Made by a program: the position numbers and the translations under genes. A stretch of DNA of 64,000 nucleotides from assembly GCA_913030605.1 (NCBI GenBank), contig CAJWEZ010000022.1:1-64000 (forward strand), read 5' to 3'. This stretch comes from an uncultured Spirochaeta sp. GTDB taxonomy: Bacteria; Spirochaetota; Spirochaetia; DSM-27196; Alkalispirochaetaceae. Every line of letters starts with the position of its first letter. Position 1 is the first letter of the stretch. Positions 53,252 through 62,534 of the stretch are shown here, one piece after another. The notes below the pieces were generated by a model, which saw only the letters and a program-made list of their open reading frames with translations, was not told the origin of the DNA and ran no database searches.

Positions 53252-53313
53252 TGCCCGCAGGTGGCCGGTGGCGTTCTACAGCGGGGCGCGCGTCCTGCAC
53301 GGGAGTCGCCCCG

Positions 53314-53342
53314 TTGACCGGCACCGGCGCCGGCGCTACACT
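53314..53342 (+). promoter_or_regulatory. Promoter of the ABC-F transcription unit
   Basis: TTGACC (53314-53319), exactly 17 bp, TACACT (53337-53342). Transcription should start near 53349, about 195 nt before the ABC-F start codon. Confidence 0.68.
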
Positions 53343-53371
53343 ACCGGTCAGAAGCAAGGAGTCCATTCGAC

Positions 53372-53392
53372 GTGAAAATGCAGGGCGAATAA
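53372..53392 (+). CDS. Six-codon leader peptide
   Basis: GTG AAA ATG CAG GGC GAA TAA (MKMQGE) with AAGGAG at 53356-53361, 10 nt upstream. It is the first ribosome-entry site on the ABC-F transcript. Leader peptides of this kind let antibiotic-stalled ribosomes control ABC-F genes (known for msr, vmlR and others). Function here is inferred from the layout only. Confidence 0.5.
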   Translation: MKMQGE

Positions 53393-53419
53393 GAGCGAAA
53401 CCCCGTTTCCGGTTCCCGC

Positions 53420-53459
53420 GTACCCAGCGGGTACCCCGGCTCGTTGAGTCGGTACCGAC
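53420..53459 (+). promoter_or_regulatory. Alternative GGTACC-based hairpins in the ABC-F leader
   Basis: Arms GTACCC/GGGTAC (53420-53425 and 53429-53434, 3-nt loop), GGTACC twice (53430-53435 and 53451-53456), and self-complementary GTCGGTACCGAC (53448-53459). Several mutually exclusive stems are possible, as expected for an attenuator. Confidence 0.5.
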
Positions 53460-53512
53460 AAACGGCCGGCCATCTTGTTCGTGTCCCGCTGCAATCACGG
53501 CGTTGTGGGCCG

Positions 53513-53539
53513 GGCCATTCCGGACTCTGTCGGAGGGCC
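53513..53539 (+). promoter_or_regulatory. Hairpin that sequesters the ABC-F Shine-Dalgarno
   Basis: Outer arms GGCC (53513-53516) and GGCC (53536-53539), inner arms TCCG (53519-53522) and CGGA (53531-53534). The ribosome site GGAGG (53532-53536), 7 nt before GTG 53544, is inside the 3' arm, so folding should block translation. Confidence 0.55.
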
Positions 53540-53543
53540 TCTC

Positions 53544-55073
53544 GTGCTTCATCTTTCCCATCTTTCGTATTCCTATCCCGGCGCATCGCTGCCGGTATTC
53601 TCATCGGTAGCCGCAGTCCTCGATCGAGGGTGGACAGGCGTCGTCGGCGCAAACGGCGCGGGCAAAAGCACGCTTCTCAAGGTGTGCACCGGCCTGCTCG
53701 AACCCACACAGGGGACTGTCTCGCCGTCGGGGCACGCGCTGTACTGCGACCAGCGCACCGAGGAGCCGCCCACCGACTGGGAGGACTTTCTCAACGCGTG
53801 GGATGAGCGCTCCATCGCGCTGATGGATCGCCTGGGCATCGAGTACACCTGGCAATACCGGTGGTCAAGCCTGAGCTTCGGCGAACGGAAGCGGGCCCAG
53901 CTGGCGACGGCGCTGTGGGTGGCCCCTGAGGTTCTGGCGGTGGACGAACCGACCAACCATCTCGACGGTGACGCCCGGCGGATGATCGTTGCAGCCCTTG
54001 CGGACTGGGACGGCGTCGGACTCCTGGTCAGTCACGATCGCGCGGTTCTCGACGGACTCTGCCGCCGGACACTGTTCCTGGCGGAGGGGACCGCCGTGCT
54101 GCGGCCGGGCGGCGTCTCCGCGGGGCTCGCGGAGGAGGCGCGGGAGCGCACCGCGGCACTCCGGGAGCGGGAGGAGACACGGCGCGAGGTTCGGCGCCTC
54201 CGGCGGGAGGCGCAGCGACGCGACGCGATATCCGAGCGTTCCCGCGGGCGGCTCTCGAAAAAGCGCGTGGGTCGCGCTGACGCCGACACGCGGGCGCGGA
54301 TCGACCTGGCGAGACTCACCGGCAAGGATCGGCGCGCGGGGACGGCGGCCCGGGAGATGCGGGCACGGGCCGATGCCGCTGAAGAGACGCGGCGGTCGAT
54401 ATCGGTGGCGCCGGCGACCTTCTCCCCACCCCCGGGGGCGCTGGGTATCCCGGCAACGGTGGCAGCCGGTGACACGGTGTGCCGACTTCCGGCGGGTGAG
54501 ATCGTGGTGGGCCAGGACCCGCCGTTCCGGGTGCGACACCCGGAGCTATCGGTGGCCCCCGGCGAACGGGTCGGCCTCGCCGGGCCCAACGGTGCCGGCA
54601 AGTCGACCGTCCTGCGGCACCTGTCTGCGGCGGCTCACCATGTCCCGGTTCAGGTCCTGGCGCAGGAACTCGAGACCGGCGAGGTGCGCGCGATTCGCAG
54701 CGCGCTGGATAGCCTGTCCCGCGACGAGCGGGGGCGCGTGGTGTCGCTGGTGGCGCAGCTCGGAAGCGACCCTGAGCGCGTCCTCGATACCGGGTTTCCC
54801 AGTCCGGGGGAGGCGCGGAAGATCCTGATCGCACTGGCGGTGGTGCGGCCACCGGCGCTCATGGTGCTGGACGAACCGACCAACCATCTGGATCTGCCGT
54901 CGGTGATGGCGCTGGAGGCGACGTTGCAGGTGTTTCCCGGGAGTCTCATCGTGGTGAGCCACGACGAACGGTTTCTTGCCGGTGTCTCCGATACCCACTG
55001 GCGCCTCGATCGTGAGGGGAACACGGCGACGCTGACGGTGCAATCGTCCCCGCCGCGGGATGATTCTCGTTGA
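53544..55073 (+). CDS. ABC-F type ATPase (ribosome-associated/antibiotic-resistance family)
   Basis: 509 residues from GTG 53544 (GGAGG 7 nt upstream). Two ABC domains and no membrane helices. Domain 1: Walker A VGANGAGKSTLLKVC (about residue 37), signature SLSFGERKRAQLA, Walker B VLAVDEPTNHLDGD. An Arg-rich linker (AAREMRARADAAEETRRSI) follows. Domain 2: Walker A AGPNGAGKSTVLRHL, signature FPSPGEARKILIALA, MVLDEPTNHLDLP. The linker is the P-site tRNA interaction segment of ABC-F proteins. Whether it protects from antibiotics or is a housekeeping EttA-like factor cannot be told; the attenuator-like leader favours resistance. Confidence 0.88.
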   Translation: MLHLSHLSYSYPGASLPVFSSVAAVLDRGWTGVVGANGAGKSTLLKVCTGLLEPTQGTVSPSGHALYCDQRTEEPPTDWEDFLNAWDERSIALMDRLGIEYTWQYRWSSLSFGERKRAQLATALWVAPEVLAVDEPTNHLDGDARRMIVAALADWDGVGLLVSHDRAVLDGLCRRTLFLAEGTAVLRPGGVSAGLAEEARERTAALREREETRREVRRLRREAQRRDAISERSRGRLSKKRVGRADADTRARIDLARLTGKDRRAGTAAREMRARADAAEETRRSISVAPATFSPPPGALGIPATVAAGDTVCRLPAGEIVVGQDPPFRVRHPELSVAPGERVGLAGPNGAGKSTVLRHLSAAAHHVPVQVLAQELETGEVRAIRSALDSLSRDERGRVVSLVAQLGSDPERVLDTGFPSPGEARKILIALAVVRPPALMVLDEPTNHLDLPSVMALEATLQVFPGSLIVVSHDERFLAGVSDTHWRLDREGNTATLTVQSSPPRDDSR

Positions 55074-55098
55074 ACTGTGGCTGCGGTCGGGGTATTCT
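55070..55098 (+). promoter_or_regulatory. Promoter of the diguanylate cyclase gene
   Basis: TTGAAC (55070-55075), 17 bp, TATTCT (55093-55098), followed by 26 nt before GTG 55125. The -35 overlaps the ABC-F stop codon. Confidence 0.55.
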
Positions 55099-55124
55099 GG
55101 GGAGACCGCGCTGGTGTTCGCCCC

Positions 55125-57086
55125 GTGAAACAACTGATCAACCGTGTGTCGCTGTCACTGCCGCTTTTCCTCACGATCCTCCTGCCGATCGTGGGGACCG
55201 TGGTGTTGTCGGTCCTGGTGGTGGACGCGTTCGACCGTGCCAGGGGCGTCGCGATTACGGTGCAGGAGCAGGACCTCGACCAGCTCGTGCAGCTCACGGG
55301 GCGCGCGATCGACGAGCTGTGGATCGAGCCGCGCAGCGAGATGATCGAGCGGCTCTCCCGGGCGGACGTTCTGCGACGACGGCTGCAGGGAGCGGCATCG
55401 TTCGACGAGCTCGTTCGTGAATGGCGGGCGGCGCGCCCGGCCCTCGGTGACTACTTCTACATCTACTACGGACTTCAGGACGGCCGGATCGAACTGTATC
55501 CCGATGATCCGCTGCCGCCGGGCTACGATCATCGGACCCGTCCCTGGTATCGCCGCGGTATGGCCTCGGAGGGGGGCGCCGTGTGGACCGCGCCGTACCG
55601 CGAGATTATCACCGGTCAGGTGATCGTGAGCACGGTGGTGCCGCTCTTCGCCGACGGCGCCGAACCGGGAGATCGTCCGATCGGAGTCTTTGCCGCCGAT
55701 GTGACCTTCGAGGATCTGACCGCCATTCTGCACGCGGTGGACCTGCCCGGCGGCGGCGCGGTGTTCCTGCTCGACGCCCTCGGCAATCCGTTTGTGGGGA
55801 CCGACGCGACGTGGGTCAACGCGCGTCGGCTGCCCAGCGCGGGAACGCGGCTGTTCGTGAATACCGGCGAGCCGTTGTCCAACGGCTGGCGCGTCGCGGT
55901 TGTGGTGCCGCGCTCGTCCCTGGCGGCGACGTTCGACCGGCTCCGCCGTCCGATCCTGGGGTGGGCGGTCGCCGTGGTGGCGGTAGTTGCAGTGGTGCTG
56001 GCGCTGCTCGTCATGCGCACGGCGACGCGGGCGCACCGCCTGGCGCGGTACTTTCAGCTCGTGGAGGACGAATCGGTTGCCCCTCGCACGCTCTTCCGGA
56101 CCCGGGACGAGTTCTCCTTTCTCAACGAACGCTTCAACCGCGCGGTGGATGCCGCCCGGTCCGCGCGCAGGGAGACGGTGGCGCGGGAGGAGACGTTCCG
56201 ATTCCTGGTGGAGGATGTGCCGGTGGGTTACTTCCGGTGTCGCACCGACGGGCAGCTGCTGGACGTCAACCGTCACTGCGCGGAGATGCTCGGCTATTCC
56301 CACGACGCGGTGCCGCAAGAGGTATCCTCGATCACGGACCTGTACCACGACAGCGCCCGACGGCGGGAGATATTCCGCGACCTCATGGCGGACGGGGAGG
56401 TGCACAACCGCAAGGTGCGGTTCGAGTCGCGGGACGGGCAGCCGGTGTGGCTCTCCATGACGGCGTGCCTCGACCGTGGCGCCAGCACGGCCTCCTCCGA
56501 GATTCGCGGGTTTCTCATCGACGTCACCGCCGACGTGATGGAACGCAACGAACTCCATACGCTGGCGCAGTACGACGCCCTCACCGGCGCAGCGAACCGG
56601 CGCGCCTTTGACGAGGCGATCGCGCGTACCGTCGACGCGGCGGTGGACGCCGGTGGCGCGGTGGGACTGGTGCTCTTCGACATCGACGAGTTCAAGAGGA
56701 TCAACGACACCTGGGGCCACGACGTCGGCGACCGGACGCTGAGTGCCGTGGTGATCTCCGCCGGCGGCATTCTCCGGAGTCAGGACACGCTGGCGAGGCT
56801 GGGGGGCGATGAGTTTGCGGTGTTGCTCCCGGGTGCCGACGAGGACGCTGCGTACGGACTGGCGATCCGTATTCGCGAAGCGGTTCGCAACGCCGCGTTC
56901 CCCTCGGACCTGCCGACGGCACCGACGTTGAGCATCGGCGTTAGTGCCGCCACCGGAGCGGTGATCGAGCCCGGAGATCTGATGAAACGCGCCGACGTGG
57001 CGCTGTACCGGGCGAAACACTCGGGCAGAGACGAGATCGTCCGCGCTTCGCGTTCCGACGATACCTCCGACGAGCGCTGCAGCTAG
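55125..57086 (+). CDS. Membrane-bound sensor diguanylate cyclase (Cache-PAS-GGDEF)
   Basis: 653 residues from GTG 55125. Makes cyclic di-GMP. N-terminal membrane helix (LPLFLTILLPIVGTVVLSVLVVDAF), a periplasmic dCache domain (ELYPDDPLPPGYDHRTRPWYRRG, VFAADVTFEDL), a second membrane helix (WAVAVVAVVAVVLALLVMRT, about 290-312), a PAS domain (FLVEDVPVGYFRCRTDGQLLDVNRH) and a GGDEF domain with DALTGAANRRAFDEA, DIDEFKRINDTWGHDVGD and LGGDEFAVLLPG. No EAL domain; an RxxD I-site five residues before GGDEF is replaced by SQDTLAR, so product inhibition may be weak. Confidence 0.9.
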   Translation: MKQLINRVSLSLPLFLTILLPIVGTVVLSVLVVDAFDRARGVAITVQEQDLDQLVQLTGRAIDELWIEPRSEMIERLSRADVLRRRLQGAASFDELVREWRAARPALGDYFYIYYGLQDGRIELYPDDPLPPGYDHRTRPWYRRGMASEGGAVWTAPYREIITGQVIVSTVVPLFADGAEPGDRPIGVFAADVTFEDLTAILHAVDLPGGGAVFLLDALGNPFVGTDATWVNARRLPSAGTRLFVNTGEPLSNGWRVAVVVPRSSLAATFDRLRRPILGWAVAVVAVVAVVLALLVMRTATRAHRLARYFQLVEDESVAPRTLFRTRDEFSFLNERFNRAVDAARSARRETVAREETFRFLVEDVPVGYFRCRTDGQLLDVNRHCAEMLGYSHDAVPQEVSSITDLYHDSARRREIFRDLMADGEVHNRKVRFESRDGQPVWLSMTACLDRGASTASSEIRGFLIDVTADVMERNELHTLAQYDALTGAANRRAFDEAIARTVDAAVDAGGAVGLVLFDIDEFKRINDTWGHDVGDRTLSAVVISAGGILRSQDTLARLGGDEFAVLLPGADEDAAYGLAIRIREAVRNAAFPSDLPTAPTLSIGVSAATGAVIEPGDLMKRADVALYRAKHSGRDEIVRASRSDDTSDERCS

Positions 57087-58787: not shown

Positions 58788-60059
58788 TCAGGCGCGACGT
58801 GCCGCACGGATCACCGTTCCCGCGGCGAGGGAGTGCGCCACCTCCGGTGACGGCACGATCGCACCGTGATCGGCGTTCGTGACGCGGTCGGTGGGTGCGC
58901 CGTCCGGCGTCAGGAGTGTGAACGAACGATCCGTCACCCGCGTCGGAGACGCCGGGTTTTGCGGCAGGTACTCGATCGTTGTTCCGGCGTGAATCGTGTT
59001 TTTCACCGTCAGACGCCACGCGTCCGGCCCCAGGTGAGGAGCGCGGTCGTCGACCACCGCCATTAGCCGATGGTCCCCCGGAGTGTCCCCCTCCGCCGGT
59101 TCGTGGACCGTACCGTCTCCGAACAGAAACCCGGCGGTGTACTCACGGTGGGCGATGCGGAACAGCTCCTGGCGGTGGGCGTCCAGGTCACCGACCGGCG
59201 TTCCGGATGCGACGTCCGCGCCGGCGCAGGCATCGATCGCGGCGCGATAGCTGCGGGTGACTGCGGCGACGTAGAGCGAACTCTTCATGCGTCCCTCGAT
59301 CTTCACGGCGTCCACGCCGGCCTCCATCAGTTCCGGGATGTGGTCGAACAGGTTCAGGTCCCGCGACGACAGGATCGTGGTGAAGCGTCCGTCGGATTCC
59401 ACCGGGATGAACCGGCCCGGTCGCTGTCGTTCCTCCAGGCGGTACTGTTCCACCCGGTATTTCCAGCGGCAGGACTGGGCGCAGTCCCCGCGGTTGGCGG
59501 AGCGACCGGCGAGTTCGTCGGAGAGAAAACAGCGCCCGGAGTAGGCCATGCACATGGCGCCGTGGACGAAGACTTCGACCTCCAGCCCCGGAACCGCGTC
59601 CTTGATCGCGCGAACCTCATCCAGGGAGAGTTCCCTGGATGGCACGATTCGACTGAACCCGAGGCGGTGGTACACGCGGGCGGCGGCGGCGTTGGTGCAG
59701 TTGGCCTGCGTCGACAGGTGTAGTTCCACTCCCGGCATGGCGCGGTTGACGGCATCGATCAGTCCGATATCGGCGAGGATCACCGCGTCGATCGGCAGCA
59801 CCGCCAGACGGGAGAGCACATCCGGCACCCGCCGGAGATCGTCCTGGTGGGCGAACAGGTTGAGGGCGGCGTACAGCTTTCTGCCCCCTGCCTTGAGGCG
59901 GCGGAGGTCGGCGGCGAGCGCCTCCGGGTCTTCCCCGGGGATCGCGTCTGCGTGAGTCCGAAGGCTGAAGCCGTGGACGCCGATGTATGCGGCGTCGGCG
60001 CCGTAGCGGTACGCGGTCGCGAGCTTCTCGAGCGACCCCGCCGGGGAGAGCAGTTCCAT
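58788..60059 (-). CDS. U32-family peptidase / prephenate-type protein
   Basis: 423 residues from ATG 60059. The U32 signature region runs VEVFVHGAMCMAYSGRCFLSD, SANRGDCAQSCRWKYRV and the N-terminal MELLSPAGSLEKLATAYRYGADAAYIGV. Cysteines in MCMAYSGRC and GDCAQSC fit a [4Fe-4S] site known for U32 proteins such as RlhA and TrhP, which hydroxylate tRNA or rRNA; protease activity is doubtful. Full length for the short U32 form. Its own promoter; divergent from purC. Confidence 0.85.
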   Translation of the reverse strand: MELLSPAGSLEKLATAYRYGADAAYIGVHGFSLRTHADAIPGEDPEALAADLRRLKAGGRKLYAALNLFAHQDDLRRVPDVLSRLAVLPIDAVILADIGLIDAVNRAMPGVELHLSTQANCTNAAAARVYHRLGFSRIVPSRELSLDEVRAIKDAVPGLEVEVFVHGAMCMAYSGRCFLSDELAGRSANRGDCAQSCRWKYRVEQYRLEERQRPGRFIPVESDGRFTTILSSRDLNLFDHIPELMEAGVDAVKIEGRMKSSLYVAAVTRSYRAAIDACAGADVASGTPVGDLDAHRQELFRIAHREYTAGFLFGDGTVHEPAEGDTPGDHRLMAVVDDRAPHLGPDAWRLTVKNTIHAGTTIEYLPQNPASPTRVTDRSFTLLTPDGAPTDRVTNADHGAIVPSPEVAHSLAAGTVIRAARRA

Positions 60060-60071
60060 AGCGTGGCGCGT

Positions 60072-60100
60072 AGCGTATCGAGGTACCGTGGACGGTGCAA
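60072..60100 (-). promoter_or_regulatory. Promoter of the U32 gene
   Basis: TTGCAC (60095-60100), 17 bp, TACGCT (60072-60077), with 12 bp to ATG 60059 and no Shine-Dalgarno. Confidence 0.5.
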
Positions 60101-60127
60101 GCGCGTCGCAATCCCGTGCTCCGCGGC

Positions 60128-60156
60128 TTGTCCCGTGGTGACCGAGTGTGTACACT
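60128..60156 (+). promoter_or_regulatory. Promoter of the purC operon
   Basis: TTGTCC (60128-60133), 17 bp, TACACT (60151-60156). The transcript should begin near 60163, at the 5' side of the riboswitch P1 stem. Confidence 0.65.
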
Positions 60157-60163
60157 GCGGGTA

Positions 60164-60226
60164 CCGTATAATCCCGATAATCGGTTCGGGAGTTTCTACC
60201 AGGGCGCCGGAACGCTCTGACTACGG
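60164..60226 (+). promoter_or_regulatory. Purine riboswitch (guanine class)
   Basis: Three-way-junction aptamer: P1 CCGTA/TACGG (60164-60168, 60222-60226), J1/2 TATAATCC-like, P2 CCCGA/TTCGGG, J2/3 AGTTTCTACC, P3 CAGGGC/GCTCTG, J3/1 GACTA. Position 74 is C, which specifies guanine or hypoxanthine; adenine sensors have U. It lies at the 5' end of the purCFMN transcript and should switch it off when guanine is plentiful. Confidence 0.88.
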
Positions 60227-60280
60227 GCAGAAATTCCCTCCTCGTCGCGTACCACCCCGTTCGGTGGTGTTTCTGCTTTG
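60227..60280 (+). terminator. Riboswitch expression platform with intrinsic terminator
   Basis: Stem ACCACC/GGTGGT (60251-60256, 60263-60268) enclosed by GCAGAAA/TTTCTGC (60227-60233, 60270-60276), followed by TTTG. The GCAGAAA strand follows directly on the P1 3' arm, so ligand-bound P1 and the terminator can form together. The U tract is short. Confidence 0.6.
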
Positions 60281-60321
60281 TAGCCGATGTGTTCCCGCCC
60301 CCCGGCCCCACAGGAGGAGCC

Positions 60322-61038
60322 ATGGAACAGGGACGCCTGCTCTACGAGGGCAAAGCCAAGCGAGTCTTCGCGACCACCGACCCCGATCTCGTCATCTTCG
60401 AGTACAAGGACGACGCCACCGCCTTCAACGGAACCAAACACAGCCAGTTTGCCGGCAAGGGCGAACTCAACAACCGCCTCAGCGGTCGGCTGCTGGAGGC
60501 GGTCGCCGCCGCCGGTGTACCGACACATTTTGTCCGGCTCCTCTCGGCGACGCAGCAGCTCTGCCGGCGCGTGGTGATCGTGCCGCTGGAGGTGGTGATA
60601 CGCAACCGTGTCGCCGGCAGCATGGCGCGCCGGCTCGGCATCGAGGAGGGCACCACGCTCAGACACCCGGTGTTCGAGCTGTGCTACAAAAACGACGAAC
60701 TGGGCGACCCCCTTGTGGCGCCCTCCCACGCCGCCGCAACCGGCATGGCCACGTGGTCGGAGATTCGCTGGATGGAACGGTCCGCCGCCACCGTCAACCG
60801 TATCCTGTCCGAGCACATGGCAGCCGTGGGTATCGAACTCATCGATTTCAAGCTGGAGTACGGGCGCCGGGACGACGGGAGCCTCCTGCTGGCGGACGAG
60901 ATCAGTCCAGACACCTGCCGCCTGTGGGACCGGACCACCGGGGAGCGCCTGGACAAGGATCGCTTCCGGCGGGACCTGGCCCCGCTCCTGGACGGCTACC
61001 GCGAGATCCTCCGGCGCCTCGAGGAAGCGACCACGTGA
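60322..61038 (+). CDS. purC: Phosphoribosylaminoimidazole-succinocarboxamide synthase
   Basis: 238 residues from ATG 60322 (AGGAGGAG upstream). Joins CAIR and aspartate using ATP. Family motifs: LLYEGKAKRVFATTDPDLVIFEYKDDATAFNG, the RNRVAGSMARRLGIEEG segment, LIDFKLEYGRRDDGSLLLADEISPDTCRLWD (signature 2) and the C-terminal KDRFRRDL. First gene of purCFMN under the purine riboswitch; its stop overlaps purF (GTGA). Confidence 0.96.
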   Translation: MEQGRLLYEGKAKRVFATTDPDLVIFEYKDDATAFNGTKHSQFAGKGELNNRLSGRLLEAVAAAGVPTHFVRLLSATQQLCRRVVIVPLEVVIRNRVAGSMARRLGIEEGTTLRHPVFELCYKNDELGDPLVAPSHAAATGMATWSEIRWMERSAATVNRILSEHMAAVGIELIDFKLEYGRRDDGSLLLADEISPDTCRLWDRTTGERLDKDRFRRDLAPLLDGYREILRRLEEATT

Positions 61039-62534
61039 GGCGGGGGCACAGAGATGACCTGCGACTGCAGGTGACCGATATCCACGACCCCGACGATCGG
61101 CTTCACGAGGAGTGCGGTGTCTTCGGGATGTTCGTTCCCGACCGCGACGACCCGATCACCGAGTCGATCGGTCGCGTGGTGTACTACGGACTCTATTCCC
61201 AGCAGCACCGGGGTCAGGAGAGCGCCGGGATCGTGGTCGCCGGCGACGACGGGCTGGAACAGCACCGCGGCATGGGCCTCGTGGCGGAGGTGTTCTCCGA
61301 CCGCCTGCTCGACGGTCTTTCGGGGCGGGCGGCGATCGGCCATGTGCGCTATTCAACCGCCGGTTCCTCCACGATCGCCAACGCCCAGCCGCTGATGGCG
61401 CAGTCCAAGCTCGGCACGATCGCGATCGGTCACAACGGGAACCTGGTGAACGCCCCGGTGATCCGGGACCTGCTGGAGGACGCCGGCGTCATGTTTCAGA
61501 CCTCCAGTGACTCCGAGGTGATCCTGAACCTGGTGGCGCGGAGCGCCCGCCACGGTCTGCGACGGGCGATCCAGGACGCGATGCGGGCGATCCAGGGGGC
61601 GTTCTCGCTGGTGCTGCTCACGGAGGACAGTCTGATCGCGGTCCGCGATCCCAAGGGGATCCGGCCGCTGGTTCTGGGAAAACTGGGCGAGTCAACGATC
61701 GTGGCCAGCGAGTCCTGCGCCCTGGACGCTGTGGGAGCGGACCTCGTCCGGGACGTGGAGCCCGGGGAGATCGTAATCGTGAGCGGCGAGGGCATCGAAT
61801 CGCTGCAGCTCAACGAGCGTACGCAGAGCCAGGTCTGCTCCTTTGAGTTTGTCTACTTCTCCCGCCCCGACAGTGAGGTGGATCAGGTAAGCGTCTACGC
61901 CTCCCGCATGGAGGCGGGCCGCATCCTGTGGCGGGAGGCGCCGGTGGAGGCCGACGTGGTGAGCGGCGTACCCGACTCCGGCGTGGTCGCGGCCCACGGC
62001 TACGCGGAGGCCTCCGGAATCCCCTTCGGGATGACGCTGATCAAAAACAAGTACGTGGGGCGGTCGTTCATCGCGCCGACGCAGGAGCTGCGGGAGCGGG
62101 CGGTGAGCGTGAAGCTGAACGCTCTGCGGCGAAACGTGGCGGGGAAGCGCATCGTCCTCATCGACGACTCGATCGTCCGCGGCACCACGATGCGTCGCCT
62201 GGTGACGATGCTGCGGCGCGCCGGTGCCGCCGAAGTCCACATTCGCATCGCCTCTCCCCCGGTGCAGCACGCCTGCTACTTCGGCATGGACTACCCCAGC
62301 CGCAACGAACTCGCCGGCCGCCGCGGCGTTGAGGCGGTGCGGGAGATGATCGGCGCGGACTCGCTGGCGTACCTGTCACTGCCGGGCCTCCATGCGTCTC
62401 TCGGCGACACGGGTCAGTACTGCGTCGGCTGCCTCACCGGGGTGTATCCGGTGGCGGCGCCGGTGGGGCTGGAAAAGGACGAACTGCCGCCGGCGATCGC
62501 CGAACGCGACGCCGCAGCCGGGAGGCGGGGATGA
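61035..62534 (+). CDS. purF: Amidophosphoribosyltransferase
   Basis: 499 residues from GTG 61035; GTG 61071 is an in-frame alternative. First step of purine synthesis: PRPP plus glutamine to phosphoribosylamine. The nucleophile is the Cys in LHEECGVFGM (residue 27), so a propeptide of about 26 (or 14) residues must be removed, as in B. subtilis PurF. Ntn glutaminase motifs: GLYSQQHRGQESAG, VRYSTAGSS, HNGNLVN. PRPP site VLIDDSIVRGTTMRR. Cysteines in HACYFGMDYPS and QYCVGCLTG fit the [4Fe-4S] type. A longer upstream frame is only an artefact over purC. Confidence 0.95.
   Translation: MRRGHRDDLRLQVTDIHDPDDRLHEECGVFGMFVPDRDDPITESIGRVVYYGLYSQQHRGQESAGIVVAGDDGLEQHRGMGLVAEVFSDRLLDGLSGRAAIGHVRYSTAGSSTIANAQPLMAQSKLGTIAIGHNGNLVNAPVIRDLLEDAGVMFQTSSDSEVILNLVARSARHGLRRAIQDAMRAIQGAFSLVLLTEDSLIAVRDPKGIRPLVLGKLGESTIVASESCALDAVGADLVRDVEPGEIVIVSGEGIESLQLNERTQSQVCSFEFVYFSRPDSEVDQVSVYASRMEAGRILWREAPVEADVVSGVPDSGVVAAHGYAEASGIPFGMTLIKNKYVGRSFIAPTQELRERAVSVKLNALRRNVAGKRIVLIDDSIVRGTTMRRLVTMLRRAGAAEVHIRIASPPVQHACYFGMDYPSRNELAGRRGVEAVREMIGADSLAYLSLPGLHASLGDTGQYCVGCLTGVYPVAAPVGLEKDELPPAIAERDAAAGRRG

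Follow-up and report, generated by a model that had tools for sequence, protein, structure and literature searches.

A probable ribosome-mediated translational attenuator ahead of an antibiotic-resistance-like ABC-F gene in a spirochaete

The locus described here lies in a window of 64,000 nucleotides (the whole stretch of DNA that we analysed) from an uncultured Spirochaeta sp. In particular, a gene for an ABC-F ATPase of 509 amino acids occupies positions 53544 to 55073 on the + strand, and its GTG start at 53544 is backed by the alignment of homologues. The gap between this gene and its upstream neighbour, a SIMPL-domain gene (52490/52535-53251), extends from 53252 to 53543 and contains a sigma-70-like promoter on the + strand (TTGACC-17-TACACT, 53314-53342) that is the sole promoter-like site in 3.3 kb, where shuffled sequences contain 0.3 on average. 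On the same strand the promoter is followed by a Shine-Dalgarno (SD) sequence, AAGGAG (53356-53361, read directly and scored), and by a leader ORF (uORF) of six codons, GTG AAA ATG CAG GGC GAA TAA (53372-53392), whose product would be MKMQGE. GC-rich stem-loops with GGTACC elements come next (53411-53470, + strand), and the leader ends in a hairpin (53512-53540, + strand, -15.6 kcal/mol) that carries within its 3' arm the GGAGG SD of the ABC-F gene (53532-53536, + strand). Promoter, leader ORF with its AAGGAG, and hairpin burying the GGAGG had all been proposed in an original prediction made from the letters alone; all are present, at coordinates that were right within a few bases. (Note that the stem-loops include GTCGGTACCGAC at 53448-53459, a perfect 12-nt palindrome that may be an operator or a mere stem.)

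Two other features of the window can be mentioned here. A gene for a Cache-PAS-GGDEF diguanylate cyclase (55077-57086, + strand) begins a few tens of nucleotides past the ABC-F stop codon, and it is possible that this gene is co-transcribed with the attenuated ABC-F gene. Further downstream there is an ordinary purine riboswitch (RF00167, 57.4 bits, 60144-60243, + strand) that precedes purC-like (60289-61038) and purF-like (within 59847-62534) ORFs.

That the host is a spirochaete is borne out by FlaA (PF04620), a spirochaete filament-sheath family, which this genome has, as do 55 of 61 searched genomes and none of 14 controls. The ABC-F gene is present in 13 of the 61 searched genomes and is absent from all six that belong to the same genus. 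Its product lacks the Arm; both of its ABC domains are complete and keep their Walker B glutamates intact, and the long linker that joins them, of the ARD type (helices 191-236 and 247-285), has a tip that is conserved (SK..-DxD-K-AR-SGKD). ARE1 and ARE2 proteins have lost the Arm (PMC6723617), and the window protein shares with them the combination of two intact ABC domains, a long linker and a reduced Arm. The best PDB fold matches of its AlphaFold model (mean pLDDT 89.4) are VmlR2 and VgaL, with VgaA-LC, VmlR, LsaA and PoxtA also in the top ten; VmlR is the nearest full-length solved sequence, at ~24% identity. The NCBIfam model of ribosomal-protection-like ABC-F proteins, NF000355, matches 22 of 22 aligned homologues (best E-value 5.6e-94). 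The window protein itself scores 260.6 bits against a cut-off of 380 and thus ranks as a relative of that family and not as one of its certified members. In sequence and predicted fold the protein most resembles resistance ABC-Fs, and it would probably protect ribosomes.

To place the leader against its own genome, we used as background 400 kb of that genome together with the window. A uORF of no more than six codons with an SD of at least 6 nt precedes four of 217 SD-led gene starts, that of the ABC-F gene included (~2%). An SD as buried in the local fold as that of the ABC-F gene occurs in 5-7% of SD-led genes of the same genome, and burial is less unusual by a 235-nt measure (about 19-22% of genes). 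The frequency with which GC-rich leaders bury an SD, overall 13-22% of this genome's genes by broader measures, lends some weight to an alternative explanation, namely that the leader ORF and the SD hairpin coincide by chance and that the ABC-F gene is either constitutive or under a repressor that acts, for example, via GTCGGTACCGAC. The rarity of such a uORF in this genome speaks against it, and further evidence on the point is given below.

Compared with shuffled sequence, the whole leader is predicted to fold more stably (z = -3.2), and in the predicted fold, which would correspond to the sequestered, uninduced state, the SD of the ABC-F gene is ~95% paired (probability of being unpaired, 0.05). 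The minimum free energy structure places the leader ORF (segment 1, 53372-53396, + strand) in a long-range helix with 53473-53499 (segment 2, + strand), and the SD-sequestering hairpin supplies segments 3 and 4. The duplex between segments 1 and 2 is strong (-28.7 kcal/mol) yet, in so GC-rich a sequence, is only suggestive and not significant alone (z = -1.3, p = 0.11 against shuffles). The remainder of the fold uses GGT.CCCGC/GCGGG.ACC (about 53411-53435) and CCGGC.../...GCCGG. Competing GGTACC hairpins had also been proposed; the elements exist, but the predicted fold of the window leader contains no clean pair of rival GGTACC stems. No intrinsic terminator was found on the + strand of the leader, which argues that control would be translational, and an Rfam search with the leader returned no known RNA at either the gathering or a permissive threshold.

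An ErmC-like switch, in which segment 2 would pair with segment 3, was not found in the window leader itself. When a ribosome was simulated on the uORF by masking it, the SD stayed closed in equilibrium folding (0.05 to 0.08). The strongest candidate in the window for an anti-sequestering pairing, between 53407-53443 and 53506-53525 (-23.5 kcal/mol), is not claimed because the upstream partner is locked in other stems. Since masking leaves the SD closed and the alternative partner is stem-bound, refolding of the window leader is something that we infer from its relatives. Both the non-significant duplex and the lack of a predicted SD release speak for the chance explanation.

We therefore turn to the relatives, which were drawn from the phylum, from one large genus (g35) and from one family (f16). 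Spirochaete homologues outside this genome share 32-49% protein identity with the window ABC-F, and ultrashort SD-led uORFs stand ahead of nearly all of them, in many spirochaete families. ATG-started uORFs of three codons or fewer with an SD were found at 54 of 81 loci, when 9.0 were expected (maximum 16) from dinucleotide shuffles. By comparison, such uORFs occur in two of 75 stretches further upstream and at eight of 78 loci that belong to other ABC-F families. (This last control set came from a contig scan with the family alignment, which recovered mostly other ABC-F families; the same scan also gave the Sorangium locus discussed below and a positive control, the published VmlR uORF, MIN followed by a stop codon, which our uORF finder recovered in Bacillus tequilensis.) Within the order, leader DNA could not be aligned directly; what is conserved across the phylum is the type of uORF. 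The uORFs of genus g35 are MRL-stop, MIL-stop or AUG-stop, those of f16 genera including g24 and g76 are MKN-stop (with TGA and TAA stops, and AAC and AAT codons), and those of g49/g54 are of the MSSI.. type; other lineages have MKNAD, MRM, MRE, MKS, MRR, MKIR, MMRM and others, each closed by a stop codon. No such uORF was found at four homologues (L004, L014, L015 and L019).

Promoters matching at least 9 of 12 positions lie just ahead of the uORF at 15 of 31 homologous loci, compared with two of 90 control windows, so leaders probably begin at the uORF. Terminator-like sites were found in four of 81 leaders and are convincing in L003, whose leader combines an MMRM-stop uORF with an intrinsic terminator right ahead of the gene, an arrangement which suggests that this lineage uses transcription attenuation. 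Two further loci, L005 and L012, are compact: their uORFs (MRM-stop and MRE-stop, respectively) end 27-28 nt ahead of the gene, and directly after the uORF comes a short inverted repeat that surrounds the SD, clearly so in L005 (TACGAA...TTCGTA).

In genus g35 the leaders resolve into four segments: 1 (ACTGTAANNCTGATTTCC, overlapping the uORF), 2 (GGAAGTCAGTTGCAGT), 3 (CTGYAACTGGCTTC) and 4 (GGAGGCC, the SD). Over 15 distinct sequences, 1:2 is 100% paired, 3:4 93% and the alternative 2:3 92%, the last against 20-47% in slid-register controls. The 2:3 pairing contains compensatory exchanges (AU in six and GC in six sequences at one pair, and AU to GC at another) and moderately exceeds a shuffle control (11/500), an excess no larger than is to be expected when few columns vary. 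When the uORF is masked in these leaders, 2:3 forms and the SD is partly freed, its predicted access climbing from near 0 to values of up to 0.34 at several loci. By covariation and predicted folding, the alternation of 1:2 and 3:4 with 2:3 in g35 is the logic of ErmC-type attenuation. At six g35 loci (L035, L055, L057, L058, L059 and L062) an AUG-stop uORF (ATGTAA) with an SD occupies the position of the MRL-stop or MIL-stop uORF of sister loci, and the pairing segments are mostly kept.

The window gene clusters with L002 and L016/L017 in a tree of the proteins. The leaders of these sister sequences likewise start with a TTGACC promoter and, using TTG and GTG starts, encode MKIR-stop (L002) and MRIVQGKRRQ... 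(L016/L017); judged by sequence, MKMQGE fits the M-[K/R]-[M/I] series that their uORFs form. Outside the spirochaetes, the closest homologue that we found is that of Sorangium cellulosum (L086, 37% identity); its leader (locus positions about 1853-1985) carries a GTG-started uORF encoding MKISS-stop. The last codons of this uORF, its stop codon and the next bases (AGCTCCTGAATC) match the SD region of the gene (GATTCAGGAGCT) with exact complementarity over 12 nt, and when the uORF is masked the predicted access to the SD goes up from 0.0002 to 0.43. On this modelling, the Sorangium leader is a one-step attenuator.

These comparisons bear on the chance explanation raised above. The uORF class is kept in relatives far above chance, the first residues of the window uORF resemble those of the sister uORFs, and the promoter ends right ahead of the uORF, as it does in relatives; we thus regard coincidence in a GC-rich leader as unlikely. 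The original prediction had named conservation of the leader ORF and stems in relatives as its check. This comparison could have overturned attenuation, but uORFs with their own SD were found in many families and covarying stems in one genus. Attenuation through the leader ORF is therefore strongly supported, by the uORFs of relatives, the covarying switch of g35 and the resistance-like protein, whereas the SD-releasing step of the proposed stalling design is not predicted for the window leader. Taken as a whole, the leader at 53314-53543 is, in our judgement, probably a ribosome-mediated translational attenuator of the ABC-F gene.

Attenuators of this type are already known. The published uORFs of resistance ABC-F genes include MR[I/M] (CplR), MIN (VmlR), MK[L/Q] (VmlR2) and MAGN (LsaA); stalling on them is described as probably caused by nucleoside and pleuromutilin-lincosamide-streptogramin A drugs and as depending little on context (PMC10201436). 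The leader of CplR from Clostridioides difficile (uORF MRI; PMC10201436) resembles the window system in its tripeptide-class uORF opening M-R/K, its length of about 200 nt, the sequestration of the SD and the resistance (or resistance-like) ABC-F downstream. It differs in having an intrinsic terminator at the start of the gene; moreover, the window uORF has six codons and a GTG start, the host belongs to another phylum and protein identity is low. VmlR and VmlR2 (PMC10201436) share the uORF type with the window, and VmlR2 is the nearest solved fold, but vmlR is also under transcription attenuation and its product is only about 24% identical to the window protein. The Are5sc and TiaA leaders of Streptomyces (194-232 nt) likewise carry an ultrashort uORF, MLV, at which lincosamide, streptogramin and pleuromutilin drugs, and not erythromycin, cause stalling at the start codon (PMC12421871); unlike in the window, a terminator/antiterminator is predicted there, and the protein belongs to the ARE5 subfamily.

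The four-segment logic of ErmC and ErmD, clear in g35 and not found in the window, goes with leader peptides that are longer and stall by their sequence, and with a methyltransferase as the target gene. An alternative is that the window uORF senses macrolides or ketolides through the sequence of its peptide, as do those of ErmDL (MRLR) or MsrD (MYLIFM). MRL-stop of one genus is indeed the start of MRLR, a short macrolide-stalling sequence (PMC8298421), and many uORFs have K or R at codon 2. However, the third residue varies freely (L, N, M, S, E, R, I), MIL-stop and AUG-stop versions occur at the same position, the +X+ motif is missing from most uORFs, MKMQGE included, and the published ABC-F tripeptide uORFs answer lincosamide, streptogramin A and pleuromutilin drugs, not erythromycin (PMC12421871). 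Given peptides so variable, and reduced in some loci to AUG-stop, we rank macrolide-type stalling lower and consider it quite improbable. The original prediction had named erm and resistance ABC-F genes together as models. Of these, CplR and VmlR, with peptide-unspecific stalling near the start codon, appear apt, and the spirochaete uORFs fit that mode better than the erm-type mode.

Least probable of all, and in our estimate very unlikely, is that the attenuator responds to translation stress in general, such as a shortage of charged tRNA or poor initiation, and that the ABC-F is a housekeeping translation factor, since, even though no resistance phenotype is known for this ABC-F family and the sequence falls under the curated resistance cut-off, the sporadic distribution of the gene is typical of accessory resistance genes and not of housekeeping ones, the protein lacks the Arm, and its fold is closest to VmlR2, VgaL and VgaA-LC.

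We thus favour attenuation by drug-stalled ribosomes, and the ABC-F gene is probably turned on in this way. In the absence of drug, ribosomes would translate the tiny uORF and depart, the leader would fold, and the hairpin at 53512-53540 would mask the GGAGG, so that little ABC-F would be made. A drug acting at the peptidyl-transferase centre, of the pleuromutilin, lincosamide or streptogramin-A type, would trap a ribosome while it reads the first uORF codons. With the leader ORF thereby unable to pair downstream, the RNA would refold and the SD would be exposed; the ABC-F would then be produced and would remove the drug from ribosomes. Note that in genus g35 the AUG-stop uORF, which has no elongation codon, sits in the same switch as its longer counterparts. 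We tentatively entertain the idea, as a possibility somewhat short of an even chance, that drug-sensing attenuators whose sensor ORFs are as small as can be form a family found throughout the spirochaete phylum, and that the AUG-stop switch would accordingly respond to a ribosome stopped at initiation or on the start codon, without a nascent peptide taking part. The AUG-stop uORFs may represent a variant not described before.

Resistance ABC-F genes are known in spirochaetes, and in the papers that we searched we found no report of such attenuators there, so that the type, familiar elsewhere, is apparently unreported in this phylum. ARE1 and ARE3 members have been recorded in spirochaetes (PMC6723617), and tva(A) of Brachyspira hyodysenteriae, likened to the window gene here from its description (PMC6018095), is also a spirochaete ABC-F gene and lowers pleuromutilin susceptibility; that description, as far as we draw on it, mentions neither a leader nor induction. 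Our findings would extend inducible control of ribosome-protecting ABC-F proteins to spirochaetes. They predict that a large, previously uncurated spirochaete ABC-F family may be an inducible defence against peptidyl-transferase inhibitors. Moreover, the series from MRL-stop through MIL-stop to AUG-stop at one homologous position offers a natural experiment that could tell whether a nascent peptide is required by sensors of this kind.
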